Notes under the pieces: generated by a model | The model's database searches: none | What the model saw: the letters and a program-made list of their open reading frames with translations, nothing else | Told to the model about the DNA's origin: nothing | NCBI GenBank assembly: GCA_022606425.2 | Contig: JAHDVF020000875.1 | Coordinates: 1,302,001-1,366,000, forward strand | From: Lepidostoma basale | Taxonomy: Eukaryota; Arthropoda; Insecta; Trichoptera; Lepidostomatidae | Length of the DNA stretch: 64,000 nucleotides | Direction: 5' to 3' | Made by a program: the position numbers and the translations under genes | Shown: piece after piece, positions 3,335 through 58,695 of the stretch | Layout of the letters: each line of letters begins with the position of its first letter | Position numbering within the stretch: the stretch's first letter is position 1

Positions 3335-3590
3335 CACTGTTATAATATCACAATTTATTTTTATTCACTGAGAGTGTCGCGACAGCTGTTTCGCCAACCG
3401 ATGTTTGGCATCATCAGGTGTTACAATAAACTCTTTATTGTTACACCTGATGATGCCAACCTCAGTTGGCAAAACAGCTGTCGCGACACTCTCAGTGAAT
3501 AAAAATAAATTGTGATATTATAACAATGTTTTAAATTTCAACAGTAATAATGTTGAAGTTAGTGTTTCGGCCAAAACAATGGACTATTAA
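3335..3590. mobile_element. HF-A foldback with hammerhead-like core in each arm
   Basis: A near-perfect palindrome of ~100-nt arms centred at about 3430. On the minus strand the left arm has a complete hammerhead core: CTGATGA (3411-3417), one extra U, stem II GCCAAA/GGTTGGC, GAAA (3389-3392), palindromic stem III CAGCTG and UC (cleavage after 3381). On the plus strand the right arm has CTGATGA (3447-3453), stem II GCCAAC/GTTGGC, AAAA in place of GAAA (3471-3474), CAGCTG, UC (3481-3482). Stem I is weak here. The right flank carries the HF-A outer end 'GTGTTTCGGCCAAAACAATGG'. Confidence 0.8.
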
Positions 3591-3599
3591 ATCTAATAT

Positions 3600-3735
3600 T
3601 AATTCACTTTTAATTTGTTTTTATACCACTTTATTTTGGAACAATATACCTGTTTCGCTCCCACCAGAGCATTTTCAGGGTTACAAAAGATACAGAGTCC
3701 ACAATGCGTCGTTTAACCACTTGAATACTGTAAGG
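3600..3735 (-). mobile_element. HF-D foldback arm, degenerate hammerhead-like core
   Basis: The minus strand reads CTGAAAA, extra U, stem GCTC/GGAGC, GAAA, CAGG, UA, matching the HF-D element at 41.3 kb. G8 of the hammerhead core is changed to A and stem III is no longer palindromic, so it is probably inactive. Outer part 'TACCACTTTATTTTGGAAC' is shared with the 41.3-kb copy. Confidence 0.55.
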
Positions 3736-3739
3736 CCAC

Positions 3740-4535
3740 TGGTGGCCGCTACGTAGGCGCACCATGAATACCGTAAGCCCCTTTGCATTAATAATGATTC
3801 CAGTAGGAATTTTAACAACTTTTTTTGGAGTGGCTAGCGACATCTATACAATATCTCTGCAAGAAAAATGAATCTTCTGGGGTTGTTCGATCTTATTGAA
3901 AAACGGATTTTTGTAGAAGTCGAGTACTAGATAATACACAAGAACTGATATAAAATACTTTTTATTTTTTAATGTTTGCTTTCAATAAATATTTTGTTTA
4001 CAAAAATGAAAAAAATATATTTATTTAAGCTTGTGAGAACCCTGAAAGAAAAATAAAATATACGAAATTTCGAGAATACAACTTGATATATCATTTTACA
4101 GGTAAACTTTAAACATAAAGCATAAAATCCATTATCCCTATTTTTTTAAAATAATTAAAAACCTGCGGTATGTTAGTGTTCCTAACCTTAAAACATCACT
4201 GTACTCAAACGGTTAATGCATACATAAGATATAACCGGATAGGTTGTCGATGAATCAGTATTTTTACGTCAAAGAAACGCAAGAACAAAAAAAATGTGGC
4301 AATATAACTTAAACACGTTGTTTTATTTCATTTCAAAGTTTGAGCACTCTTAATAAAAAAACTCTTTACAAATACTGGTCTCAGTAATGTTTTATTCAGT
4401 AATAATTTGGTGTTTCTTGTCAGCAAACGAGATTTAACGTGTTTGTGGATTCCAAAATAATATATAAATTGATATTGACCCCTTTTATAAATCAAAGGAA
4501 CCATAACTGTAATATTCCTTCCATATATTCAGACC
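3740..4535. other. No gene or repeat recognised
   Basis: AT-rich sequence between two foldbacks. Only very short open frames; nothing I can assign. Confidence 0.4.
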
Positions 4536-5130
4536 CATTTAAAAATATATCCTTAAGAAAAATATTTAAAAAAACATGACATGTTTCGGAGGATACCTCC
4601 ATCTTCAGGTGTAAAAATATAATAGAAACTAAACAAAGAAAGACTAATATAAAAACGCATTTAAAATTCGATACAATAATTCAAATTTAAGAATTAACCT
4701 GGGCCATTTGTTATATGTAAGCACTTATAATTATTTTTTTACAGTAAGAACTAATAAATAATAATAATACATAAAAAATTGTAATTTCGAAAAAAATATA
4801 CATTTGAAAATACATCATTTATAAATGATTAATTTGCATTTGATTGGGAATGAGAGCTTAGGAGATTAAATGTAGACAAAGTATTTAAGGAAAAAGGAGT
4901 AAAAGGAGGAATCTGATTATTAATAATGTTTACAATTTGAATTTTAAATGTGTTTTTATACTAGTCTTTCTTTGTTTAGTTTTTATTATATTTTTACACC
5001 TGAAGATGGAGGTATCCTCCGAAACATGTAGTGTTTTTTTAATTTTATTTAATAATTAGTGGATTAAACAAAATTATTTTCAATTTCCTAAGTATATTAC
5101 TATGGAATGCCATAGCGTTCAATAAGTTAA
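4535..5130. mobile_element. HF-B foldback, full-length, hammerhead in each arm
   Basis: Inverted repeats of ~130 nt flank a ~300-nt AT-rich interior. Right arm, plus strand: ACAC (4996-4999), CTGAAGA (5000-5006), extra U, stem II GGAGG/CCTCC with loop TAT, GAAA (5021-5024), palindromic CATG, U-A (5029-5030), then GTGT, which pairs with ACAC as stem I. Left arm, minus strand: CTGAAGA (4602-4608), GAAA (4584-4587), CATG, UC with cleavage after 4578; its stem I is weakened (ATGT instead of GTGT). Outer ends match the 10.0, 38.8 and 41.6 kb copies (CAATTTCCTAAGTATATTAC). Confidence 0.85.
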
Positions 5131-5439
5131 AAAATATATTAACTACTGTTGTGACGCCTTAAAACAATTTTCACAGCGGTCTATTTTATGTTTTATCTCC
5201 AAGCAAAATCGAGATATAAAAGCGCGATTAAAGTTTGTAATACAATATCTGTGAATTAATTACATTTTAACAAAAGTTTTTAAACCAACGCAGTCGAATT
5301 GAGTAGAAGTTTCCAGACGTGGATAATATTTAACTTCTACTTATACTTGTATTTTGTTTAAACCGCCTAGATGTACAAAATTAAAACAAATTAATTAGAA
5401 GTTATTTATATTCTGCTGCAACCAAAGGGAAAATTATAT

Positions 5440-5735
5440 AATCAAATGATTTTACTGAAATCTCTTGAAGGAAGTTCATTTTAAATAATAATTAAATAAA
5501 ACGATGTTTTTTAACTACTTCCACTTTTGTCTTTATTTAGACAGCGACCGGTTTCGCCAGGCTCGCTGGCATCGACAGACTGGTAACCACCCCTGATCTG
5601 TATGTATATAAAGGACTAAGTTTACAATAGTGTTACCAGTCTGTTGATGCCAGCGAGCCTGGCGAAACCGGTCGCTGTCTAAATAAAGACAAAAGTGGAA
5701 GTAGTTAAAAAACATCGTTTTATTTAATTATTATG
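5440..5735. mobile_element. HF-C foldback with hammerhead-like cores
   Basis: Two ~100-nt inverted arms. Right arm, plus strand: CTGTTGA (5641-5647), extra U, stem II GCCAG/CTGGC, GAAA (5664-5667), palindromic CCGG, UC (5672-5673); stem I CAGT/GCTG pairs over 4 bp with one G-U. Left arm, minus strand, has CTGTCGA (5572-5578). The core deviates at position 6 (A to U), which in hammerheads is expected to impair cleavage. Flank 5440-5490 is homologous to 13087-13143, so the element is larger than the foldback. Confidence 0.75.
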
Positions 5736-5924
5736 GAAAATTATATTAAAATGTTTGTAAAACTGCTCAATTTTAAGTAACTAATAAAGTATTTATGTAA
5801 TTAGTTATGTTCTTCGGCAGACTGAAAAGTGACACTGTCGAAACCATTCAGAAAAATGTTAATTATGATTTCTTTTTTGAATGTATACAAACACTTATAG
5901 ACAAATACTGGATTTTACCCATTG

Positions 5925-6205
5925 CGGGTTAATGCTTACATCTAATCTTAATAGATGGCGCTAGTGTAGATTGACTTAAAAAATGTGAAGTGTTTCTCAA
6001 CATAGTAATCTTTCAAAAATTTGTCAGACGTGGCGGTCGTAAGAAGGGCGCAATGATGAATGTTGTTAGCATAAAGCGATCGCTTAAACCAATCAATGAC
6101 AGGTCATAAGTCCTGTAAACGCCCCGACCAGCATATTCTGTTTCCAAAAAACAATTACATTTTCGTCTCTTTTGAGATACAATTAATTGAGATACAAGAA
6201 ATACT
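5925..6205 (-). mobile_element. T1 non-autonomous element
   Basis: It contains the T1 blocks 'GATGGCGCTAGTGTAGA', 'TTTGTCAGACGTGGCGGTCG', 'CAATGACAGGTCATAAGTCC' and 'TTCGTCTCTTTTGAGATAC', in the same order as copies at 18.4, 19.2-19.9, 23.5 and 49.2 kb. No ORF and no RNA polymerase III boxes that I can support; class unknown. Confidence 0.6.
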
Positions 6206-6517
6206 ATATTTTCTGATGACTTTTACTTTTCTATAAAAAAATACACTGAAGAAGGACGTGTACATTCCGGAATGTTTTGATAGTTTCAATTCAAGGGTTT
6301 GTTTTGTACTAAACATTTTTACTGGTTCTTATGATGGCACTTGGGCCTTTAATGTGGTAGTTCCCGTTGTTTTCCACATTTGTGTACAACAGAAAACTAC
6401 CACATTAAAAAGACCCACGTGGCATCCCAAGAATCAGCAAAGATGTTAATAGTCTTTGCTGGAAACCATCCTTAGAATTGAAACTAAAAAAGGGTTATTG
6501 TTATAATTTATACAAAT

Positions 6518-6583
6518 AAAAACGTCTGTTTTTTAGGAGTTTTATTAAATTTTATGTGAATGACATGTTTCATCTGCCTAAAA
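6518..6583 (-). mobile_element. HF-F foldback arm
   Basis: A single arm reading, on the minus strand, GAAACATGTCATTCACATAA followed by the HF-F outer sequence ending at ACAGACGTTTTT. The core is degenerate. Confidence 0.55.
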
Positions 6584-6589
6584 ACAAAA

Positions 6590-7085
6590 TATTGAACGGA
6601 CCACTAAGATGGTTTGGACACATGGAAAGAACGACACATGAAGAAATAATGTTAAATACGACATTCACGGAAAAATAAATAGAGGATAGGGATATTGAAA
6701 GAAGGGTTGGGGCAGGCAACAAAGTGAAAGGTGCACTTAAAGTTGTCATCGCGAACAAAAACATATCCAAAAAAGCCAAAATGGCAGTGCACAATGGTGT
6801 TCGTATACCGACCCTTATGTGGAAAAAGAAGGATGAAATTAGAATAAATGTAGTAGAAATGAGATCTTTTAGACGAATGCGTGGATACTCTGTGTTTGAT
6901 AGAATGAAAATATAAGAAGTGAATGCGGTGCAAATGATAGTGTTATGAACAAAATAATAATAGGATCATTAAGATGGTTTGGACTTATGGAAATAATGAA
7001 TGAAGAAAGAATGGTAAAAAAATTATATGTTAACGATGTAAATCGCAGTGCATTTTTACTCCCCACGGCGTGATGGTTAGTTAGA
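6590..7085 (+). mobile_element. L4 LINE tail, rearranged
   Basis: It encodes the blocks RRVGAGNKVKGALKVVIANKN, KKAKMAVHNGV, KKDEIRINVVEMRSFRRM, GSLRWFGL and ends in CGGCGTGATGGTTAGTTAG. Segments are missing or out of order: a 'PLRWFGHMERT' block lies upstream of the part it should follow, and the 3' end is joined directly after the 'KLYVNDVN' block. Frameshifts throughout; non-functional. Confidence 0.75.
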
Positions 7086-7089
7086 AATA

Positions 7090-7890
7090 GAGGAAAACCG
7101 AGGAAAACGCGAGATGGTAAAATAAATTAAATGTGCTAGCGTGACACAATATCTGAATTATGAGGAAATGAAAGAAGAAACCTCAAGAAAACAGACTTTT
7201 TCGTTCGAATTTATTATTTAGTATAGAGTTTTACATCATTGTTCAAGAAACAATAACATAGGTTATTTAGATGATTATTAACTTCCTTTATTATGAACTT
7301 ATTGCAAAGATGAAGTCATTATAAAAATAATAAAAACAATACCAAAACCTTTACGCTTTTACGTTTGTAGAGAAAGATGTAGAATTTGATACAATATTTG
7401 TGTAGAGTAAACGGTACTTTAAGTAAACATGAAAATTTGATCTTATCCCGGGAATCTTAAGTTAGACACGTATTATATGGTTGCAATATCTTATCACCCT
7501 CTCAGTTAGTGTTTCCGGTGCAGGGCGGATATCCCCGTGATGCTGTAATGCAGCTAAGACCACGTGATTGCCCGGAACCGGATGTGTGCGGGTCTCTCGC
7601 CCTCGGCTCCGACGCCGGCGACAGGGGATGAATATTTATAGCCTTGAGGATGCAGACTGCGGTGGCTATAATAAAGGCTAAGATTTATGTATAAAGCGGC
7701 GTTTACGTCCATATAATGCGCTGGTTAGTAGCGCTCGCAAGCATTTATATTTAAGTAAATTTTCATTCGATTAACCTCTACTGAATAATGCAAGATGGTT
7801 AAATTAGTATTTGCATATTACTGTCGATCTTAATTTTGCAGTGGCAACAACAAGGCAAGTCAATTTAAATAAATATAATTCGACTGATCG
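7090..7890. other. No gene; HF-F end and a GC-rich patch
   Basis: An L4-like scrap lies at 7085-7190 and an HF-F terminal piece at 7195-7255. At 7500-7640 there is a GC-rich patch, out of character with its surroundings, that I cannot assign; it has no convincing splice sites or protein motif. Confidence 0.4.
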
Positions 7891-7895
7891 TTGAT

Positions 7896-7921
7896 CTTCT
7901 ATAATAATAATAATAATAATA
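7896..7921. repeat. (ATA)n microsatellite tail of the LC LINE
   Basis: Trinucleotide repeat at the 3' end of the minus-strand LC element, equivalent to the ATT tail at 30532-30556. Confidence 0.8.
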
Positions 7922-9915
7922 TGCTAACTTTCAAAGCGCCGTTTTTGTGATGTAATCACCTCAAGGGCGCATTAAGACGTGTTTTAAATCTAAAAATCTA
8001 AATATGACAGCTAAAAAAGCGATCGGTTTAAAAGTATAGTAGTACAAAGTATAAATGTTTAACTTGGGTATGAAATATGAAAAAGATGGGTTTTCAATTT
8101 AGATCTGAAATCTGTCGGATCATTTATGCATCTAAGGTGTGAAGGGAGATTGTTCCAAGCTGATGGACCGGCTACCGCGAACGCTCGATCCCCAAAATTT
8201 GTACTTGGGCAACGCTTGGGCTCAACTAATCTTCCTATTGCTGAGGAGTTCGCCGAGCGAAGTGTGGATTTCCTTGAATTTAGGCTGTCCGTTATACAGA
8301 GTTCAGATATATGACTTGGTGCCATTCCATGTAGCGCTTTGAAGACTGTCCAGCAGAGTTTATACTGGATTCTTTCTGGACTTTTAAGCCAGTGAAGTTC
8401 TTTGAGATGTTGTGTTATATGAGACTTTTTTGGAATGCCTTTAATGAGCCTTGTTGCTGCATTGAACGCAGATTGAAGTTTGTTTATTTGTTGTTTTGGA
8501 ATGTTTGCATAAATTCCATTACAATAATCAAGTCGTGACACAACGAAGGAATTTACAAGAGTTTTGAAAGTGTCATGGGGAATACTCCTTTTGACGGATT
8601 TTAATCGTCTTAGGTGGAAGAAACTAGCGCTGACCGTGTTATTAATTTGGGATTTTAGAGACAGATTTGCGTCAAGATAAACACCAAGAAGCTTTGTAGA
8701 GTTTTTGGGAACGATATCATTGTCAGCTGTTGAAATTGAGGAATGATCGATAAGATGTTGACGCTTTGCGGAAGAAGTCCAGAGAAATTCCGTTTTGGAT
8801 TGATTTAGTTTAAGTTTGTTTGATGCCATCCATCTGGATATGGCATCAATGCAGTTGACAGTTATTGACGTAAGATGTTTGGTGTCATCAGGGTTGCAGA
8901 AAAAATAAAGTTGCTGATCATCAGCATAGCAATGTGAGAGGAGGCTAAAGGATTCTATTATTTTGGCAACGTCATTTGTAAACATTATAAATAAAAGGGG
9001 TCCTAAAACAGAGCCTTGTGGCACACCAGATTGGATATTAGTAAATGAGGATTTTTCACCTGCTAGCTGCACAGCTTGTGAACGATCCGACAGATATGAA
9101 TTTAGCCAGTCTATGGCATTACCTCTAAAACCATACGTGATCGCTAATCGTTGGATAAGATATGAGTGATCAATTGTGTCAAACGCAGCGCTCATGTCCA
9201 GAAGGGAAAGCAGTGCCAATTTGCCCGATTCGTTTGCCAGGAATAAATCCGACATGACTCTAAGCAATCCCATCTCCGTTGAATGGAAACGTCTGTAGGC
9301 GGATTGTAATTTAGACAAAATATTATTTGTGGAAAGGTGAGTTGAAATTTGGGAGGCTACAATTTTTTCAAGAACTTTAGAGATGAAGGTAGATTTGAGA
9401 CGGGCCGGAAGTTACTAAGATTTTCGGAATCTAGTTGAGGTTTTTTTAATATGGGAGAAACAATAGCTTTCTTGAGCAAAAAGGGGACTTGTCCTGTTAG
9501 TAGAGATTTGTTAAAATTTTTACTAAAAATGGAGCAACATGGTGACAGCATCTCTTGAGAAGCCATGTCGGAATTGGATCAAGCGAACACTGCTTATTAG
9601 GTGCGTTTAAGATAAGTTTAATCACTTCCTGAGGTGTTGTGATATTAAATTTAGTTAGAAGTTTTCCCTCATATGTCGTGAAAGTTGGTGGTGTTGTAAA
9701 TGAAGTCGTTGCACGAATCACAGCGATTTTATCTTCAAAGTCATGAGGAGATAACTTGGTAGAGGCCTTTTCTTGATGATTTTTTCCGAGTACTGATTTA
9801 ACGGAATTCCATAGATGTCGGGGATTTTCCTTTTCCGGTTCAATTTTACATTTCCAGTACTCCGATCTTCTCGGAGCTTCTATATTTGCCTTCACTTTGT
9901 GTTGTGGATTCATAT
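7896..9915 (-). mobile_element. LC LINE (CR1/L2-like) with broken reverse transcriptase
   Basis: The longest reverse-transcriptase remnant in the window. The minus strand 9318-8059 is open for 419 residues: LLSLLDMSAAFDTIDH at residues 37-51, GVPQGSVLGPLLF at 98-110, the catalytic box YADD at 131-134, thumb and C-terminal 'DRAFAVAGPSAWNNLPSHLR' near the end. Upstream pieces (9913-9497, 9566-9357) hold the linker between endonuclease and RT ('LDPIPTWLLKRC') in other frames. Frameshifts near 9540 and stops near 9360 break the ORF; the endonuclease domain is missing, so it is 5'-truncated. The 3' UTR ends in an ATT microsatellite (7896-7921). RT copies RNA at the nicked target in intact relatives. 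Confidence 0.9.
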
Positions 9916-9999
9916 TTTTATAAATAGAAACGCACTTTGTTTTATCACAACACTTTATTTTTTTTAGTAGACATCAACTATTTGAACGCTAAGGCATTA

Positions 10000-10225
10000 A
10001 CACTGTGGAATTCTATAGTAATATACTTAGGAAATTGAAAATAACTTTGTTTCATTCACTAAGTATAAACAAAATATATTTAAAAACACAAGTTTCGGAG
10101 AATACCTCCATCTTCAGGTGTAAAAATATAATTTTTTTTACACCTGAAGATGGAGGAATCCTCCGAAATATGTCGTGTTTTTTAATTTTCAATTATTATT
10201 TTCAATTTCCTAAGTATAATTGTTA
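10000..10225. mobile_element. HF-B foldback, short palindromic form
   Basis: Palindrome without the long interior. Right arm, plus strand: ACAC (10140-10143), CTGAAGA (10144-10150), extra U, GGAGG/CCTCC stem, GAAA (10165-10168), TATG, UC (10173-10174), GTGT (10175-10178); stem I pairs 4 bp. The left arm (minus) starts with AATACCTCCATCTTCAGG on plus. Outer flank 'GAACGCTAAGGCATTAACAC' marks the family end. Confidence 0.85.
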
Positions 10226-13090: not shown

Positions 13091-13262
13091 GATAATCAAA
13101 TGATTTTACTGAAATCTCTCGATGGAAGTTCATTTTAAATAATATTATGTTTTTTTTAAACTATTTCCACTTTTGTCTTTATTAAGGCAGCGACTGGTTT
13201 TCGCCAGGCTCGCTGGCATCGACAGACTGATCTATCGATGCCAGCGAGCTTATAAGTTGAAT
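13090..13262. mobile_element. HF-C foldback, truncated
   Basis: Left arm with the HF-C sequence 'CTTTTGTCTTTATTAAGGC', a hammerhead-like core on the minus strand (CTGTCGA; GCGAAAACCAGTCG), then a short start of the right arm (GATGCCAGCGAGC). The upstream flank matches 5440-5490. Confidence 0.6.
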
Positions 13263-15100: not shown

Positions 15101-15644
15101 ATAAATACAGAAAACATTTTTCTTTTAAGTTGATCCACTGAAGCCTACATTTTCCTAGCGTTAGATCATAAATAACTTGAATCTGCCAAATCAAATAAGA
15201 TGAATTCAACAAATATATATTATATGTATTATCATATGTCAAGAGATTCTTCTCTCGAAAATCAAAAGCGTAAAGGAAGCCGTAAATATCTGTTTTGATC
15301 GACAGTTGTTACTTCATCAATATCCATTAGAGTCAACATTTCGCATCGAAATCATCTCCCTACGATTTGATCAAAATATTTTTTCAAGCTGTTTTCAACC
15401 TACTTCCACCGACAGAATGTTCTAAATAAATATATTCTTTCAAGTAGAATTGTACTCAAGAATTCTCTTTGTGCTTATAATAAGTAATTAATGGATTTAA
15501 GAGTGTTTTTTTTTAATTAGAGAGATATTAATATAATTAGCATTCACTTTTTAAAACGTACATCTAAAGCGTAAACACAAAGATGACTTTTTCCATCTTT
15601 ATTTTGGTTGTTTCTCTCGTCTTGTTTCCAAGGTATTATACAAA

Positions 15645-15900
15645 ACATTTGATAATGCCTTAGAAGGGCGAAACGTGTCATTCCCATAAAATATAACAAA
15701 ACATCTTGAAAACCGACGGTTTCATTCGTATTAATGATTTAATATGGAGTTTTACATAATTGTTCTAGAAACAATAAATAAGAAGAATTATTTGTGATAA
15801 TGTGTTAAATATGCCTTTGACAGGCGAAACATATCATTCACATAAAATATGAAAAAGCTTCTAGAAAACTGACGTTTTCATTCGTATTAACTTTTAAATG
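15645..15900 (+). mobile_element. Two HF-F arms in tandem
   Basis: First arm 15645-15783: TTTGATAATGCCTTAGAAGG then GCGAAACGTGTCATTCCC and the outer end TTTACATAATTGTTCTAGAA. Second arm 15800-15895: GACAGGCGAAACATATCATTC to GACGTTTTCATTCGTATTAA. Both lack the opposite arm. Their core reads UUGAUAA, changed at C3 and G8 relative to a hammerhead. Confidence 0.65.
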
Positions 15901-20065: not shown

Positions 20066-20480
20066 TAGGAAATTGAAAATAACTCTGTTCATTATCCACA
20101 AAACATAATAAAAACATGACATTTTTCGGAAGATACCTCCATCTTCAGGTGTATAATATATAATAAAAACTAAACGAAGAAAGGTGGCAACATATGGGCA
20201 CCCAGGATACTCAGTTGGAGACCATGGGAAAATAGGCGAAGTGTCGGAAGGCCACCGATGAGATGGACCGATGATATTATCAAAAGGGTTGGAAAATCTT
20301 GGACACAAAGGGGGCAGGATAGAGACAAGTGGAAGAAATTGGAAGAGGCCTATGTCCAGCAGTGGAGGGAAGAAGGCTAGCAAAGAAGAAAGAAGAAGAA
20401 GAAACGAGGAAAGACTAATATAAAAAACACATTTTTAATTCGATACAATAATTTAAATTTAAAAATTAACCTGGGCTAAT
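20065..20480. mobile_element. HF-B foldback, interrupted by RTE
   Basis: Left arm 20065-20184 (minus-strand core CTGAAGA, stem GGAGG/CTTCC, GAAAAATGTC), then the RTE tail, then the interior resumes at 20401 with GGAAAGACTAATATAAAAAAC. The right arm is missing. Confidence 0.7.
20185..20400 (+). mobile_element. RTE-like LINE tail inside HF-B
   Basis: Encodes AHRILSWRPWENRRSVGRPP, MRWTDDIIKRVGKSWTQ, DRDKWKKLEEAYVQQW then stop and an AAGAAGAAAGAAGAAG tail. Flanked by AAACGAAGAAAG (about 20172-20183) and AAACGAGGAAAG (20401-20412), a target duplication differing at one base. Confidence 0.85.
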
Positions 20481-22564: not shown

Positions 22565-22705
22565 AGTTCATTACACTTTCAATCAATACAAATGAAAACG
22601 TCAGTTTTGTAAAAGCTTTAAAGCCAAATAGCGCATAAAATATATTAATGTATTTTATGCGAATGACATGTTTCGCTCTTCTAATGCATTATCAAATGTG
22701 GCAAA
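22565..22705 (-). mobile_element. HF-F foldback arm
   Basis: Minus strand: ATTTGATAATGCATTAGAAG, AGCGAAACATGTCATTCGC, then AAAACTGACGTTTTCATTTG. GAAA-CATG-UC is intact; the CUGANGA box is not (UUGAUAA). Confidence 0.65.
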
Positions 22706-23030
22706 ATTTCATTAATATATAATACTTAGAATCATTAGTCACCTTGAAATATGTAAAATCATTTGTAAACAATTTATAAAAATATGTTTTTATTAGAAAC
22801 CCTTTATTTCTTTCTACCTCAAATAACTTTTTTTCGATTTATATAATGTCATTTAGTATTCCTTACTTATGTAATCTGTGTCATAAAATGTCTTAATGAG
22901 GTACAAGAAACACTTTTCAGTATTTTTGGGCCAACCCAAATAATAATTTGTTTAAAATGTATAAAGTCACATCAGTTTTCGTTAATTGGCATATTCTGTT
23001 CCATTTACTAGTGTATATAAAAAGCAACGA
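22705..23030. other. No assigned feature
   Basis: AT-rich, possibly the interior of the HF-F copy that ends at 23.2 kb (AACGAGGTGAAATTTCGTCAC resembles the long HF-F interior at 37.2 kb). Confidence 0.35.
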
Positions 23031-23034
23031 GGTG

Positions 23035-23195
23035 AAATTTCGTCACATTTGATAATGACTTAGAAGGGCGAAAGATTTCATTCCCATAAAACATAATAAA
23101 ACTTATAGAAAGCTTAAGTTTTCGCATTAAATACTCGTATTTAATATGGAGTTTTACGAAATTGTTCAAAAAAACAATAAATAATTTTGATTTGG
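23035..23195 (+). mobile_element. HF-F foldback arm
   Basis: TTTGATAATGACTTAGAAGG, GCGAAAGATTTCATTCCC and outer end ATATGGAGTTTTACGAAATT. Stem III is lost (GATT). Confidence 0.55.
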
Positions 23196-27020: not shown

Positions 27021-27215
27021 GAAATTAAATAAAACGATGTTTTTAACTACTTCCACTTTTGTCTTTATTTAGACAGCGACCGGTTTCGCCAGGCTCGCTG
27101 GTATCGACAGACTGGTCTGTCGAGCAGACCAGTCTGTCGAAACCGGTCGTTGTCTAAATAAAGACAAAAGTGGAAGTAGTTAAAAAACATATATTTATTT
27201 AATTATTATTTAAAA
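27020..27215. mobile_element. HF-C foldback, compact
   Basis: Two arms with almost no interior (centre about 27122). Left arm, minus strand: CTGTCGA, TACCAGC/GCCTGGC stem, GAAA, CCGG, UC. The right arm has lost the stem-II hairpin: CAGTCTGTCGAAACCGGTCG. So only one arm keeps the full layout. Confidence 0.7.
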
Positions 27216-32530: not shown

Positions 32531-32768
32531 GCCTTAATACTATGAATTCAAATGTCTGTTTTCTAAAAGTTTTATTATATTTTATTTAGATGACATGTTT
32601 CGCCTGTCTAAGGCATTATTAAATGTCTATTACATTTGAATACCTCAGACAAGAGAAACATGTCATTCACAAAAAATAAAATAAAACTTCTAGTAAACAG
32701 ACGTTTTCATTCGTTTTAATTATTTAATATGGAGTTTTACATCATTGTTCAAGAAACAATAGTTATTA
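32530..32768. mobile_element. HF-F foldback, both arms
   Basis: Left arm (minus core: GGCATTATTAAATG on plus, GACATGTTTCGCCTGTC) and right arm (plus: TTTGAATACCTCAGACAAGA then GAAACATGTCATTCAC), then the outer end TTTACATCATTGTTCAAGAA. GAAA-CATG-UC is intact in both; the CUGANGA box is not. Confidence 0.7.
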
Positions 32769-33960: not shown

Positions 33961-34620
33961 ATATATAATTCAAAAGAACTTTTGTTCGCAAACGGAAAAC
34001 TTTATAAAAACCGTTGCCCGCACAGACACTGTTAGTGAAACAGATAAAAATACCTGGGCAGCAGAAAATCCCAATGATCGTAAGAAGTTATTTACTGGAG
34101 CCTCTGAGGTCGGTTTCCCGCTGTACTTTCATCCCCTATCCTCCCTTAATTGGTCAAACAATGGTAATGCTGCACAGGGGCTGTATTTTAAACCGTTTCT
34201 GTTCCACGATCCAGGGATTGTAAACAATCCCACAAACAAATGTAATAAAATGTTATTCAGTAGTATGTTTTAGTAACCGTGACGAAGCTCAACTTGTGCG
34301 AAACCAGTTGGTTCGATAAAACATAATTAAGTGATATAAAAATAATGTATTCAAGAGTTTTTAAATATTTTTAACTAGCGGATCCAGCAACGCTTCTCTA
34401 TTGCTATATTCGAGTATTTGATACTGTGATAAAAAAGTAAGGTAAAATTTCACCTTACTTTAATTTTATTTAAAATACGTGGGCTCTTCGATTCTGAAAA
34501 ATCTTTTTTAAGGTTGGTAGTACTGTCACTGATATCTGCATCAAATTTCATGTCATTATCTTTATTTGTCCAATAGTTACACACTTGTTTGTGAACAACA
34601 ATTTTTTTTTTTTAAATTAT
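33960..34620. other. No assigned feature
   Basis: A moderately GC-rich patch at 34010-34230 with an open plus frame but no recognised domain; HF-like sequences absent. Confidence 0.35.
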
Positions 34621-37114: not shown

Positions 37115-37530
37115 TCTGGCTGTTTTCTAGAAGTTTTATTATATTTTATAGAAATTTGTAGTTTCGCTTATCTAAGGGATTATCAAATGTAGTAAAAATC
37201 AAACGCGTTGTTGTTTATAAACACGAGTTAAAGGAGCAGAATACGGTAATTAAGGTAATTGAAGTGGTCCTATACATTGTTGAGAACAATAAGGGATAAA
37301 CCTCAGAATATAGGAAGTATTACCACACATTTTCATAAATTTAACAAGTTCCAGTCAATACTTTCCTGTATTCTGGGGTTTATCCCTTTATTGTTTCATC
37401 CCTCTATCCCTCAATTACCTTAGTTACTGTATTCTGATCTTGACCTCGTGTATATAAACAACAACGCGTTTGAATTTTGCTACATTTAATAATGCCTTAT
37501 ACAGGCGAAACATGTCATTAACATTAATTA
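37115..37530. mobile_element. HF-F foldback with long structured interior
   Basis: Outer arms flank a long interior that is itself inverted: AAACGCGTTGTTGTTTATAA near 37199 and TATAAACAACAACGCGTTTG near 37452, with matching AGAATACGGTAATTAAGGTA / TACCTTAGTTACTGTATTCT. Right core, plus: AATAATGCCTTATACAGGCG, AAACATGTCATTAAC. Similar interior pieces occur at 22.98 and 42.1 kb. Confidence 0.7.
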
Positions 37531-37550
37531 TTATTATTATTATTATTTTT
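37525..37550. repeat. (ATT)n microsatellite
   Basis: About seven ATT units followed by a T run, between HF-F and the S1 SINE. Confidence 0.7.
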
Positions 37551-38775: not shown

Positions 38776-38799
38776 TTAATTTGTACATATTTTTCTCTT

Positions 38800-39190
38800 A
38801 TTGAGCGCTTAGGCATTAACACTGTGGAATTACATAGTAATATACTTAGGAAATTGAAAATAACTTTATTTAATCCACTAATTACGAAAAAAATATTTAA
38901 AAACACAACAGGTTTCGGAGGATACTTACATCTTCAGGTGTAAAAATATAATAAAAACTAGACAAAGAAAAAATAATATAAAAACGCATTTAAAATTCGA
39001 TACAATAATTCAAATTAAAACGGATATAAAATTAAAGTTTTTAAGTCTTTCTTTGTTTAGTTTTCATTATATTTTTACACCTGAAGATGAAGGTATCCTC
39101 CGAAACACGTCGTGATTTTTAAATATTTTTAAAATAATTAGTGGATAAAACAAAGTTGTTTTCAATTTCCTAAGTATATTTTTATCTGTG
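38800..39190. mobile_element. HF-B foldback, full
   Basis: Left arm, minus core CTGAAGATGTAAG.. (stem II changed: GTAAG/CCTCC). Right arm, plus: ACAC, CTGAAGA (39081-39087), extra U, GAAGG/CCTCC, GAAA (39102-39105), CACG, UC (39110-39111), GTGA; stem I 3 bp. Outer flank ATTGAGCGCTTAGGCATTAA. Confidence 0.75.
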
Positions 39191-41280: not shown

Positions 41281-41284
41281 TCAT

Positions 41285-41475
41285 CATTTCAGTATTTACA
41301 CCACTTCATTATTTTCCACAACCAACCGGTTTCGCTCTCGCCGGAACTTCGTCGGGGTAACGAAAGACCCTGTACCTTTGACAAAGTGTATTTTATAATC
41401 ATAACGAAGGCGGGAGCGAAACCGGTTAGTTGTGGAAAATAATAAAGTGGTGTAATTACAAAATTAACAAGTGTA
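41285..41475. mobile_element. HF-D foldback with hammerhead-like cores
   Basis: Left arm, minus: ACC, CCGACGA, extra A, stem GTTC/GAGC, GAAA, palindromic CCGG, UU, GGT; stem I ACC/GGT pairs 3 bp; the only core change is U4 to C. Right arm, plus: ACGAAGGCGGGAGCGAAACC then GGTTAGTTG; the CUGANGA box is lost. Confidence 0.7.
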
Positions 41476-41589: not shown

Positions 41590-41830
41590 AGTTTATACTT
41601 AGGAAATTTAAATAACTTTGTTTAATTCAATAATTATTAAAAAATATGAAAATGTTTCGGAGTATACCCTCCATCTTCAGGTGTAAAAATATATTTTTAC
41701 ACCTGAAGATGGAGGTATCTTCCGAAATATGTCGTGTTTTTTTATATTTTTTTAATTATGAGTGGATTAAACAAAGTTATTTTCAATTTCCTTAGTATAT
41801 TACTATGGAATTCCACAGTTTGCTGTGCAA
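41590..41830. mobile_element. HF-B foldback, short palindromic form
   Basis: Right arm, plus: ACAC, CTGAAGA (41703-41709), extra U, GGAGG/CTTCC, GAAA (41724-41727), TATG, UC (41732-41733), GTGT (41734-41737); stem I 4 bp. The left arm is the inverse with GAGTATACCCTCC. The right outer end runs into the minisatellite at 41832. Confidence 0.85.
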
Positions 41831-41831
41831 A

Positions 41832-42042
41832 GCAATGCCTTAGCTTTCAATGCAATGCAATGCCATGCAATGCAATGCCTTAGCATTCAATGCAATGCAA
41901 TGCCATGCAATCTAATGCCTGAGCATTCAATGCAATGCAATGCCATGCAATGAAATGCCTTAAAATTCAATGCAATGCAATGCCATGCAATGCAATGCCT
42001 TAGCGTTCAATGCAATGCAATGCAATGCCTAAGCGTTCAATA
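41832..42042. repeat. TGCAA-based ~40-bp minisatellite at the HF-B end
   Basis: About five units of 'TTCAATGCAATGCAATGCC' plus 'ATGCAATGCAATGCCTTAGC', diverging by a few bases. It starts in the HF-B outer end (AATGCCTTAGC.TTCAA), so the unit arose from the element's terminus. Confidence 0.85.
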
Positions 42043-42224: not shown

Positions 42225-42350
42225 TTTAATGTGGAAAACTGTTGTTATATTACAATTAATTTATTGAATTTCTATGAAATTGTCACGACAACCATTTCGC
42301 CAACCTACGTTGGCATCATCAGGTGTTACACAAACTAAATTATTACGCTA
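42225..42350 (-). mobile_element. HF-A arm with complete hammerhead core
   Basis: Minus strand: ACAC, CTGATGA (42316-42322), extra U, GCCAAC/GTTGGC with loop GTAG, GAAA, TGGTTG, UC with cleavage after 42287, GTGA. Stem I CAC/GTG pairs 3 bp; stem III has drifted from CAGCTG. Confidence 0.7.
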
Positions 42351-51309: not shown

Positions 51310-51440
51310 ACAGAATTTTATTCGTCTTTTTCTTTTTATATGCTATATATATACAGCACTAACTTTAAAAAAATTAAAATTAAATATCAGACATGTTTCA
51401 GACAATCCGATACTTCCTCAGTGATATTATAAAGATATTT
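51310..51440 (-). mobile_element. HF-H arm with a 7-bp stem I hammerhead
   Basis: Minus strand: AATATCA, CTGAGGA, a 15-nt stem-II segment, GAAA, palindromic CATG, UC, TGATATT. The 7-nt flanks pair perfectly as stem I, and every core nucleotide matches the hammerhead consensus, without the extra U seen in other families. Stem II is poor (only the AG/CT base is clear). Confidence 0.65.
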
Positions 51441-51570: not shown

Positions 51571-51659
51571 GACAGATGTTACTTTATCCGACACCTTTTC
51601 CAGTAATTTTATCTTGGACAATCGGTTGTAGCACTTTGCACTTGTCTCTCATAATAATA

Positions 51660-52200: not shown

Positions 52201-52217
52201 GACATTAATTTTAATAA

Positions 52218-52473
52218 TAATACCAGAGGTTTGATTCTTGAACAATGATGTAAAATTCCATATCAAATAATTAATACGAGTGAAAACGTAAGTTTTCTAG
52301 AAGTTTTATTATATTTTACGGGGATGACATGTTTAGCCCTTCTAAGACATTATCAATTGCCTCATTACCAAACCCATTTGATAATGCCTCAGTAGGGCGA
52401 AATATGTTATTCCCATAAAATATAATAAAAATTCTAGAAAACTGACGTTTTCATTCGTATTAATACCAGAGGT
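52218..52473. mobile_element. HF-F foldback between 13-bp direct repeats
   Basis: Both arms are present; the left core on minus reads GGGCTAAACATGTCATC, the right core on plus TTTGATAATGCCTCAGTAGG, GCGAAATATGTTATTCCC. Flanked by TAATACCAGAGGT at 52218-52230 and 52461-52473. The right arm lacks the outermost ~35 nt that the left arm has. Confidence 0.7.
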
Positions 52474-52489
52474 ACTCGTATTTGGATAT

Positions 52490-52595
52490 TTGTTTTAAAT
52501 ACTGTATTTTCACAACATTTATTTACACTTTTCATAAACATGTTTCAGGCCACAGACGCTCTTCCTCAGTGCAAAAATTCTAACAATAAGATGAA
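52490..52595 (-). mobile_element. HF-H arm, second copy
   Basis: Minus strand: TGCACTGAGGAAGAGCGTCT, GTGGCCTGAAACATGTTTAT; CUGAGGA, GAAA, CATG, UU are present, stem I is weak. Confidence 0.55.
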
Positions 52596-52829
52596 ACAAT
52601 GTCGTTATTTATGTACAAAATGAAATGGGGAGGAGTAGGAGTTAATACTTGAAGTAGAAGTAATTTTTATTTAATTAGAGTTGTGGGACAAATGAAACAA
52701 ATCAAATATTGGGCTTGAAGTGAAGTTTATATGGTTATTAAAAATAATTCCTAAGTTTAAAATGGCTTTTTAACTTCATAAATTATTTTATGGTTATTTA
52801 ATTAGAAGAAATAACAAATATGCTTTATA

Positions 52830-53320: not shown

Positions 53321-53620
53321 GAAGAGAATATGACAATTTATTTACGTATCTGCGTTAAGTTATTTACGTCCTTAAATATCATAAGAGCATCAGTCATTAC
53401 TGAGCGGCTCTAAGTATACTTTTGTCTAGTTCTGTAGATACGGGAAAGCTACCCTTAAAGATGCCACTTTGCTTCCATTATGTGTAATATTCAAAGCTGA
53501 TAAAAGCAACTCCGTCGTCATTGCCTTAACACTATAAGACCCGGGCTCATTTAAATACTGATATTATTACATCTGCGCGACATAAAATTATGTAAAATAA
53601 TATGCCTACAATATATATAC
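53320..53620. other. No assigned feature
   Basis: Mixed-composition DNA without recognisable repeat or ORF. Confidence 0.35.
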
Positions 53621-53624
53621 AATC

Positions 53625-54172
53625 AAACCGCAGAGCTAAAAAGAAGAATTGGACTAAGCTGGGCAGCTTTCGGAAACATGGATTACATCATTAAAAACAA
53701 GAAAATACCAATCACCTGAAACGAAAAGTCTATGAAGCCTGCGTTCGGCTAGTTGGTCTTGAAACTGTTACATTGTCCAAACAAAGTGCTGAGAAACTAC
53801 GAGTGACCCAAAAAGCCATGGAAAGAGCCATGTTAGGAATAAGCCTAAGAGACAAATTCAGAAACGATACGGTGAGAGAAAAAACAAAGGTCACTGACAT
53901 CATCCACCGGGTGGCGACTCTAAAATGGCAAAGGGCAGGTTACGTAGCCAGAAGCTCAGATGAAAAGTGGACAAGATTACTGCTGACTTGGAGACCGTGG
54001 AAGGCGAAGAGAAGTGGAGGGCGACCGCAACTACGGTGGAAGGATGATCTGAACAGACACGTTGGAATAACCTGGATGCAGTCTGCACAAGACAGAGTGA
54101 CATGTAAGCGAATGGAGGAGGCCTTTGTCCAGGAGTGGACGGGAATAGGCTGAGGAAGAAGAAGAAGAAGAT
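53625..54172 (+). mobile_element. RTE-like LINE RT tail
   Basis: RIGLSWAAFGNMDYIIKNKK, then LETVTLSKQSAEKLRVTQKA, LRDKFRNDTVREKTKVTDII, WQRAGYVARSSDEKWTRLLL, SGGRPQLRWKDDLNRHVGIT, RMEEAFVQEWTGIG and stop, GAAGAAGAAGAAG tail. One frameshift near 53740; otherwise open. Confidence 0.85.
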
Positions 54173-54249
54173 ATAAACAACGTATCAATGAGATAAGAAT
54201 ATTTGAAAATGACTTCACCAAATTAAGATTTCCGTAAAAAAATTAATAT

Positions 54250-54500
54250 AAAGAATTATAAATACTGTTATTAAAATAAACAAAAGTTGTTTAAAAATAG
54301 AACAAGTAAAAATTCTATAAGTGATATGAAATATTCACGACACGTGTTTCGTCTTATGAGGACATCTTCGACTGTCGAACTCTCGAAGAAGTCCTCATAA
54401 GACGAAACATGTGTCGTGAATATTTCATATCACTTAAAGAATTCTTAGTTCTTCTATTTTTAAACAATTTTTGTTTATTTTAATAACATCATCATGGAAT
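54250..54500. mobile_element. HF-E foldback with hammerhead-like cores
   Basis: Arms of ~100 nt with a 20-nt centre at about 54376. Left arm, minus: UCGAAGA, extra U, GTC/GAC stem, GAAA, palindromic CACGTG, UC, GTGAA. Right arm, plus: TCGAAGA, AGTCCTCATAAGAC, GAAA, CATGTG, UC, GTGAA. Core changes at C3 and U4. Outer ends pair (TGTTATTAAAATAAACAAAA). Confidence 0.7.
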
Positions 54501-54529
54501 TCTATACACTTAATCATACATCGATTAAT

Positions 54530-54790
54530 AAATTATAAATACGTTTGGACGCCAGTGACACGTTGCGAAAATACATCGAAATCATTATCCAAAAAGCCCT
54601 CAGCATTCTCACAAAATCAAAACGTAGAGGCTACCCAATAGCAACATGGTGGGCCAACTTGGAAAAGGAGGTACACCATAAGAACTTGACAGTAGAGATG
54701 GGTCAGGATAGAAAAGTTTTTTGTCTTCGTACGAGGAAAGCCGACTCTAGATAATGCGGAATGCTAAAGGAAAAGCAGAAGAAAAAAGAA
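54530..54790 (+). mobile_element. LINE RT tail, separate family
   Basis: RRGYPIATWWANLEKEVHHK, NLTVEMGQDRKVFCLRTRKA, DSR stop, followed by AAAGCAGAAGAAAAAAGAAG. Resembles the 'W...RTRKADP' C-terminus of certain insect LINEs. Confidence 0.55.
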
Positions 54791-54824
54791 GTACATGTAA
54801 TGTTTTTTTTCCAAATGGAGATAT

Positions 54825-54965
54825 AACACACATCTTCTTTTTGTTAATCAGATTCGTTCCATTGCTGGACATAGACACCTTCTAAACTCTTTCAATATTT
54901 TCTTAAGCTATCTGCTGCCATCTACGGCTCACAACCTGGAAAATGTCACCTGTCCACCTTTTTGT
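54825..54965 (-). mobile_element. RTE-like LINE 3' end, distinct subfamily
   Basis: Plus strand TTCGTTCCATTGCTGGACAT, CTATCTGCTGCCATCTACGG, the inverse of an RTE 3' end ('RRWQQIA', 'SLEGVYVQQWNE'-like). ORF broken. Confidence 0.55.
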
Positions 54966-55295
54966 GGGAATCAGACTTATATAACAATACAATTTTTATT
55001 TTGAAAGAATACATCGACCGAGAACACAATAACAAGTGCGATACTAAGAATGGAGTATTAGCCTCTTGAGCATTGTAGCATTGTTTCATTAATGTAAAAA
55101 TGTCCAGCTTCAAAGCGACCATGTTCGGCAGTTTGATGGATTTTACCACTAGCATTAACAAATATAAGTTGTTATTGCGTTTAATGTTGGGAGATAAAAC
55201 AATCGATGAATACCTTGTCGAAGATACTTAAATATAAACTCGCCAAGATGGTGAAGTTTTAGAGTTTTGAAGAAATTTATAAGTTAGAAACCATT
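54965..55295. other. No assigned feature
   Basis: AT-rich, no recognised motif. Confidence 0.35.
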
Positions 55296-55299
55296 CCGG

Positions 55300-55690
55300 A
55301 TGATATCTAAACTATAGAAGATGGATGCGAGACATGGATATTGATAAGAGAAGTAATGAACAATATCAAAGTTGCACAACGGGCCATAGAAAGATCCATG
55401 TTGGGTAGTAGCTCACTTAGAGACCATAGAGCTAACGTGGAAAAAAAAGACCCACCAGTGTCACCGATGGATGAAGTGACAATGGGCTGGACATGTGTGC
55501 CGACGGGATGATGGAAGATGAAATCAGAGGGTTACTGAATGGAGGCCAAGGTTAGGTGAAGCGATGGTATTGTACGGATGGTGGAAAGGGTCTGGAGAAC
55601 ACTGGCGAGAGACCGAGAGGGATGGCGTGGGGGTGGAGAGGCTTACGTCCAGTAGTGGATGGAGACAGGCTGACGAAGATAGTAGATAAT
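55300..55690 (+). mobile_element. RTE-like LINE RT tail, decayed
   Basis: YEDGCETWILIREVMNNIKV, AQRAIERSMLGSSSLRDH, then stops, and RVWRTLARDREGWRGGGEAY, VQ-WMETG at the end. A third RTE subfamily. Confidence 0.7.
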
Positions 55691-56480
55691 TATCCATAGT
55701 AGATAGTAGATAATGGGTTACAAATGAAAACGCTCTTTCAAACCCGACATAGAAAGTGCTTATTCATTCAATATAATAGGACCAAGCTTTTAAAGGTTTA
55801 ACCCTTCTCTTGATACTTTCATTCTATTTTAAAAATTGCTCAACCGATGTTAATTTTTTTAAAGGGCCTTATACATGTTTAAAATGCTGGACATGAAAGA
55901 GTTAAAGCGCTGTTGACGTTTTGACGTCCTTGTTTGACGTTCCGACACATCTGACACAGGCAGAATGTTGTAGGTAGCACGAATGTTAATAAAGTATGAA
56001 AAAATTCACGCGTCGACGGGTAAAACTGACAAACTTTTGACGTGCGCCAGAAATGATGCTACACGATTTAAATTTTAGAATGCCTCCGCGAGATTTGCAA
56101 ATGGCGGGGAATATTTGACATTCCGTTTATTATTTGAGGGAATGTTATTTTATTCAAATCGTGTTGACAGATTATGTGACAGCGGATTGTTAGTATTAAG
56201 GACGTGTTTAAGAAGAACGTATTGTATTTAAAATGTAATTATCCGAATAAACAACATCATTATACGAGTAAATCGTTAAGACTACGGCTACCCCGAAGTG
56301 TTTCGGTTGGTGACTCGCTTGGTGTCTGTCCATAAATGACAGAAACTGCTATAAATTGCACAAAATTAAATAAATAAATAAATATTCAAACGTTACCAAA
56401 TTTATTTCAATGCCTAACTAATAAATTAATAATCGATTTGAAAAAAACATGAGTTTATAAATAGTTGTCCATTAACTTAA
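55690..56480. other. No assigned feature
   Basis: AT-rich with a few GACGTTTTGACGTCC-like short palindromes near 55915-55940. No ORF or repeat family I recognise. Confidence 0.35.
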
Positions 56481-56484
56481 ACAA

Positions 56485-56890
56485 ACTAACCATCACGCCG
56501 TCTTTCCATACGGTTAAGCAGGAAGAATGAACTTCCACATTGTTCTGTCCTGAAATACTACTCCATTCCTGTATGTTCAAATATTGGGCCATGCACGCAC
56601 GTCGAGTTTTCCGACTCCTCACGTGGCCGAATATTTCATTGATTTGATAATGCCACGTTTTCCTCGGCCCTCGTCTATTTCTAGGCTTATTTCGTTCATA
56701 AAACTTTCATTCGCATTGCGTTCACTTATTATATTCACATTTGACACTCTATCATATATAAATTTGCACACATTCGTCTAGTCTAAGAGATCTCATTTTT
56801 ACTGCATTTATTCTACTTCTTTCATCCTTCAGTTGCCAGTTTTATGCTTCACTTCCAAACAGAAGATTCGGTACAATAACACGATTTTAC
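56485..56890 (-). mobile_element. L4 LINE tail, decayed
   Basis: 3' end ACCATCACGCCGTCTTTCCA on plus; minus blocks RNIRPREESENSTCVHGP, PRKTWHYQIN, NVNKIMKG deleted, and KLATEG at the far end. Internal deletions. Confidence 0.65.
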
Positions 56891-56954
56891 TCTACCATTA
56901 TAGCATTTTTAGATACTTCTTTTTGCGATAATCAAATAATATATATTGCACTAT

Positions 56955-57095
56955 ATAATTAGCCTCACAGGACTTGTCTTCGTGAGAAACCTACTAAAAG
57001 ATGGAAGGATAGCTGGGAATCACCTCACAGAAGAAGCAACTATCTGGAAAACAGACCACGTAGGTCTACAATACGGAAGAAGAAGAAGAAGAAAT
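56955..57095 (+). mobile_element. L3 LINE 3' end
   Basis: GLVFVRNLLKDGRIAGNHLT-type frame (RPTKRWKDSWESPHRRS in frame) followed by GTAGGTCTACAATACGGAAG and AAGAAGAAGAAG. Confidence 0.6.
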
Positions 57096-57099
57096 TAAT

Positions 57100-57810
57100 A
57101 AATTAAATATTCTTTCTCCGACAGCGTGTTAAGACAATATGCAATTGTATTACTTTGATTATGCAAGAGTAAGACAAAAAATTACAAATAGCCCTGAGAA
57201 TGCCCGTTACAGAGTGAAACCGGTTTGCGCTTCTAACTCAAATAAAATGGTTTACACTAAGTGAAAAGTGTTTAATTTTATTTTTAAATATGTTAAAGTA
57301 CCAAGGTATTCATATGAAAGTTCAAGATAACTACATTTCAGTAATAACAAGATTAAAGCTTTTTGAAAACGAGTTTTTCAAATAATCCGATGTTTTGTTT
57401 ATTTGTTCATGTTTTGAAAAGTTTTGAAATGTTGTTTAGGCAACTTTGAATAAAGTTCAGAAGATAAAACTTGTCACCCTAAATTAAATGCTAATAATAT
57501 GAATAAAAAACATATGATAATACTTTGCAAATCGGTCAAAGAACACACCAAACACAATAATATTTTTTGTTTTCTTGTTTTTACTTCTTTATACAAGTAA
57601 TCTATTACTTTGAGACAGTATTTTTATCTATTGTATAGTACAAAAACATGATTTATTCTCGGAAATAGATATTTCTAAACCTTGGAGTATTCTTGAAGAA
57701 ACAATAGTGCCTAAGTAAACGTGTCAACTAAGTTTTTTAAGAGAATATTTCTATCAGGAGCGTAGCGGCTTTTTAAATGGATTGAAGGGGCAGAATTCTA
57801 TACGAGTATA
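57100..57810. other. HF-D arm, otherwise unassigned
   Basis: 57185-57275, plus: CTGAGAA, extra U, GCCC.../GAGT, GAAA, palindromic CCGG, UU. G8 is changed to A. The rest of the stretch is AT-rich with no feature. Confidence 0.5.
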
Positions 57811-57814
57811 GAGA

Positions 57815-58695
57815 TTGTCGAGTTGATTTCTGGGTCCTCACGTGGCCGATATTCAATATTTAATTTATTTGATCGTTAACATATATTATACTTTTTTACC
57901 ATTCTTTCTTCATTAATTTTTTCACAGGGGAATAAAATAAATGGCGCACTCAAAATCATTATAGTATAGAAATAGAAATATATCCACAGAAGTAAAGATG
58001 GCAGTACACAATGAAGTTTTAGTGCCAACCCTCGTGTATGGAAGTGAAGCTTGGAGCTGGCAAAAGAAGGATGAAAGCAGGATAAACGCCGTAAAAATGA
58101 GATCACTAAGAAGAATGTGCGGGAAAACGTTGTATGATATAATACCGAACGATGAAATAAGAAAGAAATGTAATTGCGTAGATTTTCACAGTTAGGAAGG
58201 AATAGCCGATGGTCACTGAGGTCTCCATCTTCAGGGTACCCTGAAAATGGAGACTGCAACGATCTCCGAAACGTCGGTCGAGAAGAAGTTACCGAAATCA
58301 CACGGTGTTACCCAAAAACACAACAAACATAAGAAAGAAATGTAAGGCAGATGACTGCGTCATGAATAAAATTAAAAAAGGATCCCTAAGATGGTTTGGA
58401 CATATGAAACGAATGGATGAGAGTAGAATGGTTAAAAAGATGTACACAAGCAGCGTGAGTGGGAAAAAAAGCCGAGGACGACCGAGGAAATCATAGCATG
58501 ACTAAATTAATCAATTACTATAAGGCGGCCACATTCGAAGTCGGAATAATCGACGTGCGTGCATGGGACGTTGTATGAAAGTAGAGGAAGCCCGAGAGTT
58601 ATGCCAGGACAGGGCATTGTGGCGATCCATCCTCTCTGCCTACCACTCCGGGGAAATGGCGTGATGGTTAGTTAGTTAGTTAGTTAGAGTCATTA
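57815..58695 (+). mobile_element. L4 LINE tail with an inverted 5' stub and an HF-G insert
   Basis: 57815-57925 is a short L4 piece on minus; at 57925 the orientation switches and the plus copy runs NGALKIII, NRNISTEVKMAVHNEVLVPT, LVYGSEAWSWQKKDESRINA, SLRRMCGKTLYDIIPNDEIR, (HF-G insert), KKCKADDCVMNKIKKGSLRW, FGHMKRMDESRMVKKMYTSS, KKSRGRPRKS, VRSRNNRRACMGRCMKVEEA, RELCQDRALWRSILSAYHSG, EMA stop, ACTCCGGGGAAATGG and (GTTA)4. Confidence 0.8.
58174..58328 (+). mobile_element. HF-G foldback inserted with 17-bp target duplication
   Basis: 155 nt between perfect 17-bp repeats ATAAGAAAGAAATGTAA (58157-58173 and 58329-58345). Plus-strand core: ACC, CTGAAAA, extra U, GGAGA/TCTCC with loop CTGCAACGA, GAAA, CG, UC, GGT; stem I ACC/GGT pairs 3 bp; only G8 is off consensus. 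The centre AGGGTACCCT is palindromic and the left arm repeats CTGAAGATGGAGAC on minus. It ends in an A-rich stretch (CCCAAAAACACAACAAAC). Confidence 0.8.

Follow-up and report, generated by a model that had tools for sequence, protein, structure and literature searches.

The 64,000-nucleotide stretch of the Lepidostoma basale genome analysed here (contig JAHDVF020000875.1, positions 1,302,001 to 1,366,000; hereafter the window) contains foldbacks, or pairs of inverted arms, that carry sequences resembling the core of the hammerhead ribozyme. We consider it likely that these foldbacks are truncated insertions of several families of Penelope-like elements (PLEs), each arm being the end of a pseudo-long terminal repeat (pseudo-LTR) and carrying the minimal type I hammerhead that is typical of its family. 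The hammerhead-type layout itself is confirmed in the window. The original prediction for this DNA described eight unrelated families of non-autonomous elements that use or once used self-cleavage. Instead, we find lineages that share a single layout and include at least three PLEs; F4 and F5 appear by eye to be a single family, and truncated PLE insertions arranged as inverted pairs take the place of separate elements. The families were not taken from automatic clustering, which merged some and split others. The window belongs to a 769-Mb assembly of 1572 contigs, in which four families have 63,759 matches at up to three mismatches (F1 8748, F2 19748, F3 15198 and F6 20065); the reversed-pattern controls of these genome searches gave 0.

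According to the mechanism that we propose, the PLE protein would cut both target strands, and reverse transcription on each of them would begin at one of two start sites inside the template, which would be one RNA or two RNAs from one source. The two complementary DNAs (cDNAs) would then be joined in the middle to give an inverted pair. The hammerhead would be part of the RNA of the parent element and would have stayed uncut in the copied RNAs; within the transcript of a foldback, it would be trapped in a long hairpin.

Ends, tails and target-site duplications

The outer ends of F1 fall at two points, approximately +93 to +105 and +135 to +151, and those of F3 also fall at two, +93 to +108 and +138 to +141. 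A tail of approximately 45 nucleotides is present on exactly one end in 61 of the 62 classifiable pairs (42/42 in F1 and 19/20 in F3). This count excludes L001, which is the window's own copy, and an overlap rule dropped eight calls of two tails that came from a self-complementary tail stretch matching itself. Exact duplications of at least 8 bases flank 30 of 74 pairs compared with 52 of 2220 controls (F1, 19/53 against 42/1590; F3, 11/21 against 10/630). Moreover, the median divergence of F3 arms is 0.27% within a foldback and 1.8% between foldbacks (10 pairs, permutation 0.0008; 11 of the 21 F3 pairs were used, and one was lost because an arm had no anchor); in L038, one of the ten pairs compared, the arms differ at 7/169. 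Judged from these sequences, the F3 arms of one foldback appear to share one source. The inner points of truncation vary among foldbacks. A candidate rule that the tailed arm is always longer did not hold by eye and was dropped.

The foldbacks look like single insertions. One insertion from one RNA source, made on both target strands from two start sites, fits the duplications, the one-tailed ends and the near-identical F3 arms. The Anolis PLE protein cuts and extends both strands in vitro and starts at two adjacent internal sites (PMC11167929).

Several observations weigh against this interpretation. Twelve more pairs (11 F1 and one F3) have an unclassifiable end, and one F3 pair, read on a short fragment, is tailless at both ends. 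No pair was obtained from 39 F1 and 19 F3 sources, for which the fetched stretches were short and some of the F3 sources were not F3. At the computed ends, 44 of the 74 pairs lack an 8-base duplication, and the duplication of L062 sits in an AT repeat and says little. Identity within a foldback could also be given by gene conversion or self-priming. Furthermore, the Anolis protein shows no start-site difference between strands in vitro (PMC11167929), so those data do not account for the strict one-tail rule.

Self-priming has been put forward for rotifer PLEs (PMC3846280). In that model, a cDNA, proposed to be made on an antisense template, folds back and primes its own copying, which fits the near-identical F3 arms and the short palindromic centres of several F1 pairs. 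However, a self-copied arm should end at the start of the first arm, and the ends are unequal in 61 of the 62 classifiable pairs. We therefore regard self-priming as a rather unlikely origin of the inverted pairs.

Among the sampled loci, L098, L109 and L121 have a common junction and duplication (up to orientation) and probably go back to a single event; the same holds for L061 and L062.

Relationship to Penelope-like elements

Because their hammerheads lie downstream of GIY-YIG loci, F1, F2 and F3 are PLE ends, and these three families at least are PLEs. The F3 element L062 contains a 758-amino-acid frame with RVT_1 at 302-478 and GIY-YIG at 651-734. The PLE membership of this reverse transcriptase is judged from a homology list; the relatives named among the best 120 of 1343 are from insects, including Phthorimaea, Euphydryas, Diabrotica and Schistocerca. 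Among the best 30 of 62 GIY-YIG matches, some of which are the two arms of one foldback, a same-strand hammerhead lies downstream of 25 (F3 17, F1 7 and F2 1). The distance from GIY-YIG to the start of the hammerhead is 107-1024 bases in these 25 loci and 339-448 bases in 21 of them. The other five of the 30 (L031, L032, L033, L040 and L049) have no F1, F2 or F3 hammerhead downstream; L031 and L033 are bacterial-looking genes.

PLE frames are also present inside longer foldback copies, and pseudo-LTRs with tail variants and a target-site duplication were found in F1 and F3 and, by eye, in two window foldbacks. The PLE context named in the original prediction is thus borne out by the F3 frame and by the hammerheads downstream of GIY-YIG loci. 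From layout alone, we infer that F4 to F8 are PLEs as well.

The bacterial-looking loci L063 (G000:C102, a 1.64-Mb contig) and L064 (G000:C729, 0.25 Mb) have long uninterrupted frames, with GIY-YIG genes that by eye resemble uvrC; the covariance model described below has no match in them at E<=1. The assembly seems to include symbiont or contaminant contigs.

The hammerhead-type fold

The original prediction placed a CTGANGA-like box, a hairpin, GAAA, a self-complementary segment and T-H in fixed order at more than 30 sites, and this layout stands: 16 strict cores were found, and homology to the families identifies 49 window sites, many of them decayed, with queries that came partly from the window itself. 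The strict descriptor demands one base between the box and stem II and a stem II of at least 4 bp, with mismatches counted in the box or GAAA. It found 9 cores without a mismatch and 7 with one, compared with 0.05 and 1.3 in first-order and 0 and 2.65 in second-order Markov controls (1.35-2.65 in total). When the spacing between the box and stem II was changed to 0, 2 or 3 bases, only 0-1 cores without a mismatch and 3-4 with one were found. With three mismatches allowed, the real sequence (92) is not distinguished from random sequence (79-85). A looser descriptor, which gave 26 window sites and 8-16 in random sequence, was too weak and was dropped as sole evidence. The predicted sites 3381-3417, 5000-5034, 5641-5677, 41724-41737 and 51385-51427 fall inside family members; the site at 58174-58328 is weak, with a covariance-model E of only 0.32.

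Stems I and II covary across families, as expected of a hammerhead-type fold. In six hand-chosen representatives (F2, F6, F12 and others were left out), 95.8% of the cells of both stems are paired, compared with 54.6% after shuffling and 31-51% when slid; this level was reached in 0 of 500 shuffles, and both sides change in 7 of 8 stem pairs. For stem I over nine families, 30 of 36 pairs are formed against 15.6 expected, and 0 of 20000 permutations were as good; F2 and F6 form just 2 of 4 pairs each. A covariance model built from the six representatives matched 18 window sites at E<0.001, of which two are training sequences and most others come from trained families. The held-out F2, F6, F7, F8 and F13 sites in the window gave E values of only 0.02-2.8. 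Three other model matches, 34271-34317 (plus strand, 28.7 bits), 52529-52577 (minus, 24.2 bits) and 57186-57233 (plus, 18 bits), fit no family query.

The Rfam hammerhead models found nothing in the window that reached the gathering score. Under relaxed settings, Hammerhead_1 (gathering 34) matched 54333-54380 on the minus strand (23.3 bits, E 0.39) and 54371-54421 on the plus strand (19.6 bits, E 6.4).

Changes in the core

F1 and F2 match the CUGANGA...GAAA...UH core except for one extra base before stem II, and A6 is kept in 100/100 of the F1 copies listed and 98/100 of the F2 copies listed. In F3, with A6 left free in the search, this position is U in 98 and C in 2 of the 100 exact copies listed. 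The exact copies of F6 have U3 in 68/73 and A8 in 70/73, and C3 occurs together with G8 in none. When double mutants of another hammerhead were scanned, low activity was found for every change in this motif but the C3-G8 swap (PMC9901934), and a natural hammerhead with A6 changed to C was cut at under 0.1 per minute (PMC3088659). By analogy, F3 and F6 carry motif changes that may be linked to low activity. F6, F7 and F8 resemble hammerheads in outline at least. Among the 100 listed of 119 matches, the CTGAAAA box at 3678 (minus strand) occurs in the window copy alone, which rules out F5 as a family with a fixed G8-to-A change.

Is the ribozyme used?

We examined 40 F1 loci that were picked independently of the hammerhead, by the sequence downstream of it. 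The predicted cut site is crossed by 32 of the 40 arms, and none of the 40 starts within 2 bases of it. Inner ends as marks of ribozyme-cut RNA were likewise ruled out, since none of the 40 falls within positions 30-34. As the start sites are located 3' of the cut, a cut RNA would lose them; each crossing arm would therefore imply an uncut template. Of 79 F1 arms in samples picked by hammerhead or tail (L001-L030, L071-L090 and the window), 29 have inner ends at -11 to -19 before the core. Only 3 of 40 do so in the independent sample, so the way the loci were picked explains part of this cluster; it could be due to a transcription start or a short palindrome. Five of the 40 loci (L098, L109, L114, L121 and L124) have an inner junction in common and may stem from one event; it seems that one foldback was copied along with its surroundings.

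When whole foldbacks were folded, the probability of stem II was 0.000 in all six cases (the copy at 38821 was uninformative, since the pair tested was A-C). In isolated arms, it was 0.98-0.99 in three and 0.31 and 0.21 in two. For the Anolis PLE, unprocessed RNA is the main substrate in vitro (PMC11167929). Self-cleavage is not supported for these copies, whose insertions, as far as their sequences tell, show no sign that the copied RNA was cut. The predicted use of self-cleavage by present copies thus disagrees with the crossed cut sites, the loss of A6 in F3, the changed core of F6 and the loss of stem II in the foldback fold. F1, F2 and F4/F5 may nevertheless be capable of catalysis.

By eye, 10 of 13 family representatives have a perfect palindrome (CATG, CCGG or CAGCTG) as the stretch between GAAA and UH, and F3 has kept its stems despite a changed core. 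These two observations raise the idea that the PLE hammerhead fold is kept mainly as a linker of RNA dimers and not as a cutter, which we consider doubtful. If it were true, an RNA dimer together with a protein dimer would give one template per target strand and hence one-tailed inverted pairs, and families with a broken core could still spread. Searches on the inverted-pair mechanism and on dimers, mostly at the level of listings and in open papers, turned up neither a rule of exactly one tail nor a role for the PLE hammerhead in dimers.

A rival reading along the lines of the original prediction is that the foldbacks are non-autonomous elements akin to retrozymes, spreading through self-cleavage and circular RNA. 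The hammerhead fold with covarying stems and the intact CTGANGA cores of F1 and F2 agree with this, and animal retrozymes also carry a type I hammerhead in short repeats (PMC7229834). However, those repeats are tandem, with units of approximately 170-400 bases that give circular RNA, whereas the foldbacks here are inverted pairs, and no tandem repeats with hammerhead-bounded units were found. By eye, neighbours of one family in the window lie inverted to each other, with 15 in minus-plus order and 1 in plus-minus order. In addition, no arm of the 40 starts at the cut site, F3 lacks A6, and the hammerheads follow PLE endonuclease frames. A retrozyme-like origin is therefore very unlikely.

Foldback DNA transposons or miniature inverted-repeat transposable elements with hammerhead-like ends by accident would share the long inverted arms, the short target duplications and the many copies. 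However, the unequal ends are not the equal terminal inverted repeats of such elements, the inner truncation points vary, and longer copies hold PLE frames (no search aimed at transposases was made); this origin is scarcely credible. Although loose descriptors hardly exceed random sequence, the probability that AT-rich repeats produced the layout by chance is negligible given the excess of strict cores over the Markov controls, the covariation level not reached by shuffling, and thousands of genome matches against 0 with reversed patterns.

Comparison with known systems

The class of element is already described: PLEs are known to carry minimal hammerheads, and inverted pseudo-LTRs on which a tail is optional have been reported as well (PMC6155905, PMC7229834, PMC3846280). 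The present case is known in kind, and its use lies in the one-tail rule and the fixed core changes. The minimal type I hammerheads of PLEs (PMC6155905, PMC7229834), including Anolis PAc (PMC11167929), have the same short or absent stem III and the same position at pseudo-LTR ends beside a frame with RVT_1 and GIY-YIG. Unlike these, the present case comprises several families in one genome, with changed cores in F3 and F6 and mostly short inverted pairs. The core of PAc overlaps the start codon: C3 and G8 precede the codon, and the cut follows it by 26 bases (PMC11167929). A similar overlap, which CTGANGATG could give here, may be the reason why an extra base follows the box; the F3 frame from the ATG in CTGANGATG closes after 11 codons.

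The Penelope of Adineta vaga has the same inverted ends, with 8-10-base duplications, and a 31-base tail on one inverted end, so that the optional tail was already noted there (PMC3846280). In contrast to what is reported for that rotifer, exactly one tail is present here in 61 of the 62 classifiable pairs, and many foldbacks are little but two ends. Insect hammerheads with a palindromic stem III, including those of Aedes aegypti, have the same dimer-permitting palindrome (PMC3088659); PLEs are not mentioned with them, and 'Penelope' occurs 0 times in the text searched.

These results touch two questions, how PLEs finish insertion and why they keep a hammerhead, and the 63,759 genome matches turn both into matters of counting. 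For annotators, such foldbacks can be PLE ends.

Features of the window

Foldbacks and inverted pairs are listed without a strand; E values are those of the covariance model ("model").

3326..3537, F2 foldback; cores 3417 (minus) and 3447 (plus); inverted arms, strict cores; E 0.059, 0.37
3604..3703, minus, F4/F5 copy; core at 3678 with G8 to A (CTGAAAA); strict search, homology; E 3.8e-6
4553..5055, F1 foldback; cores 4608 (minus) and 5000 (plus); inverted arms, strict cores, model
5428..5439, plus, left target-site duplication GGAAAATTATAT of F3 foldback; duplication search
5440..5734, F3 foldback; cores 5578 (minus, tailed arm) and 5641 (plus, tailless arm); strict cores, ends, model
5735..5746, plus, right target-site duplication GGAAAATTATAT of F3 foldback; duplication search
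10046..10218, F1 foldback; cores 10117 (minus) and 10144 (plus); strict cores, homology, model
13153..13233, minus, single F3 arm; strict search, homology, model
15624..15723, plus, F6 arm; core TTGATAA (U3, A8); strict search, homology
20102..20174, minus, single F1 arm; strict search, homology, model
22651..23123, F6 inverted pair; homology
27040..27190, F3 inverted pair; homology, model
32554..32708, F6 inverted pair; homology
37122..37531, decayed F6 inverted pair; inverted arms, homology
38787..38798, plus, left target-site duplication, 11/12 bases as the right one; duplication search
38799..39175, F1 foldback; minus arm tailed, plus arm tailless; pairing, ends, model
39176..39187, plus, right target-site duplication of the 38799..39175 foldback; duplication search
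41281..41459, F4/F5 inverted pair; core 41355 (minus); strict search, homology, model
41617..41843, spacerless F1 foldback; cores 41680 (minus, tailless) and 41703 (plus, tailed); strict cores, ends; plus-strand end uncertain
42248..42347, minus, F2 arm; core 42322; strict search, homology; E 0.021
51382..51429, minus, F9-type hammerhead; homology; E 1.7e-6
52282..52452, F6 inverted pair; inverted arms, homology
54314..54440, F8 foldback; weak hammerhead-like cores; inverted arms, relaxed Rfam, homology; E 0.28, 0.36
58216..58315, plus, F7 hammerhead-like site; core CTGAAAA; strict search, homology; E 0.32

A satellite at 41826-42028, made of 40-base units rich in CAATG, adjoins the tail of an F1 foldback, and by eye its unit resembles the GCCTTAGCGTTCAAT stretch of the tail. 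On the minus strand, a 450-amino-acid frame at 8059-9411 reads by eye like the reverse transcriptase of a long interspersed nuclear element, and 37711-37782 matches a transfer RNA at 32.9 bits.

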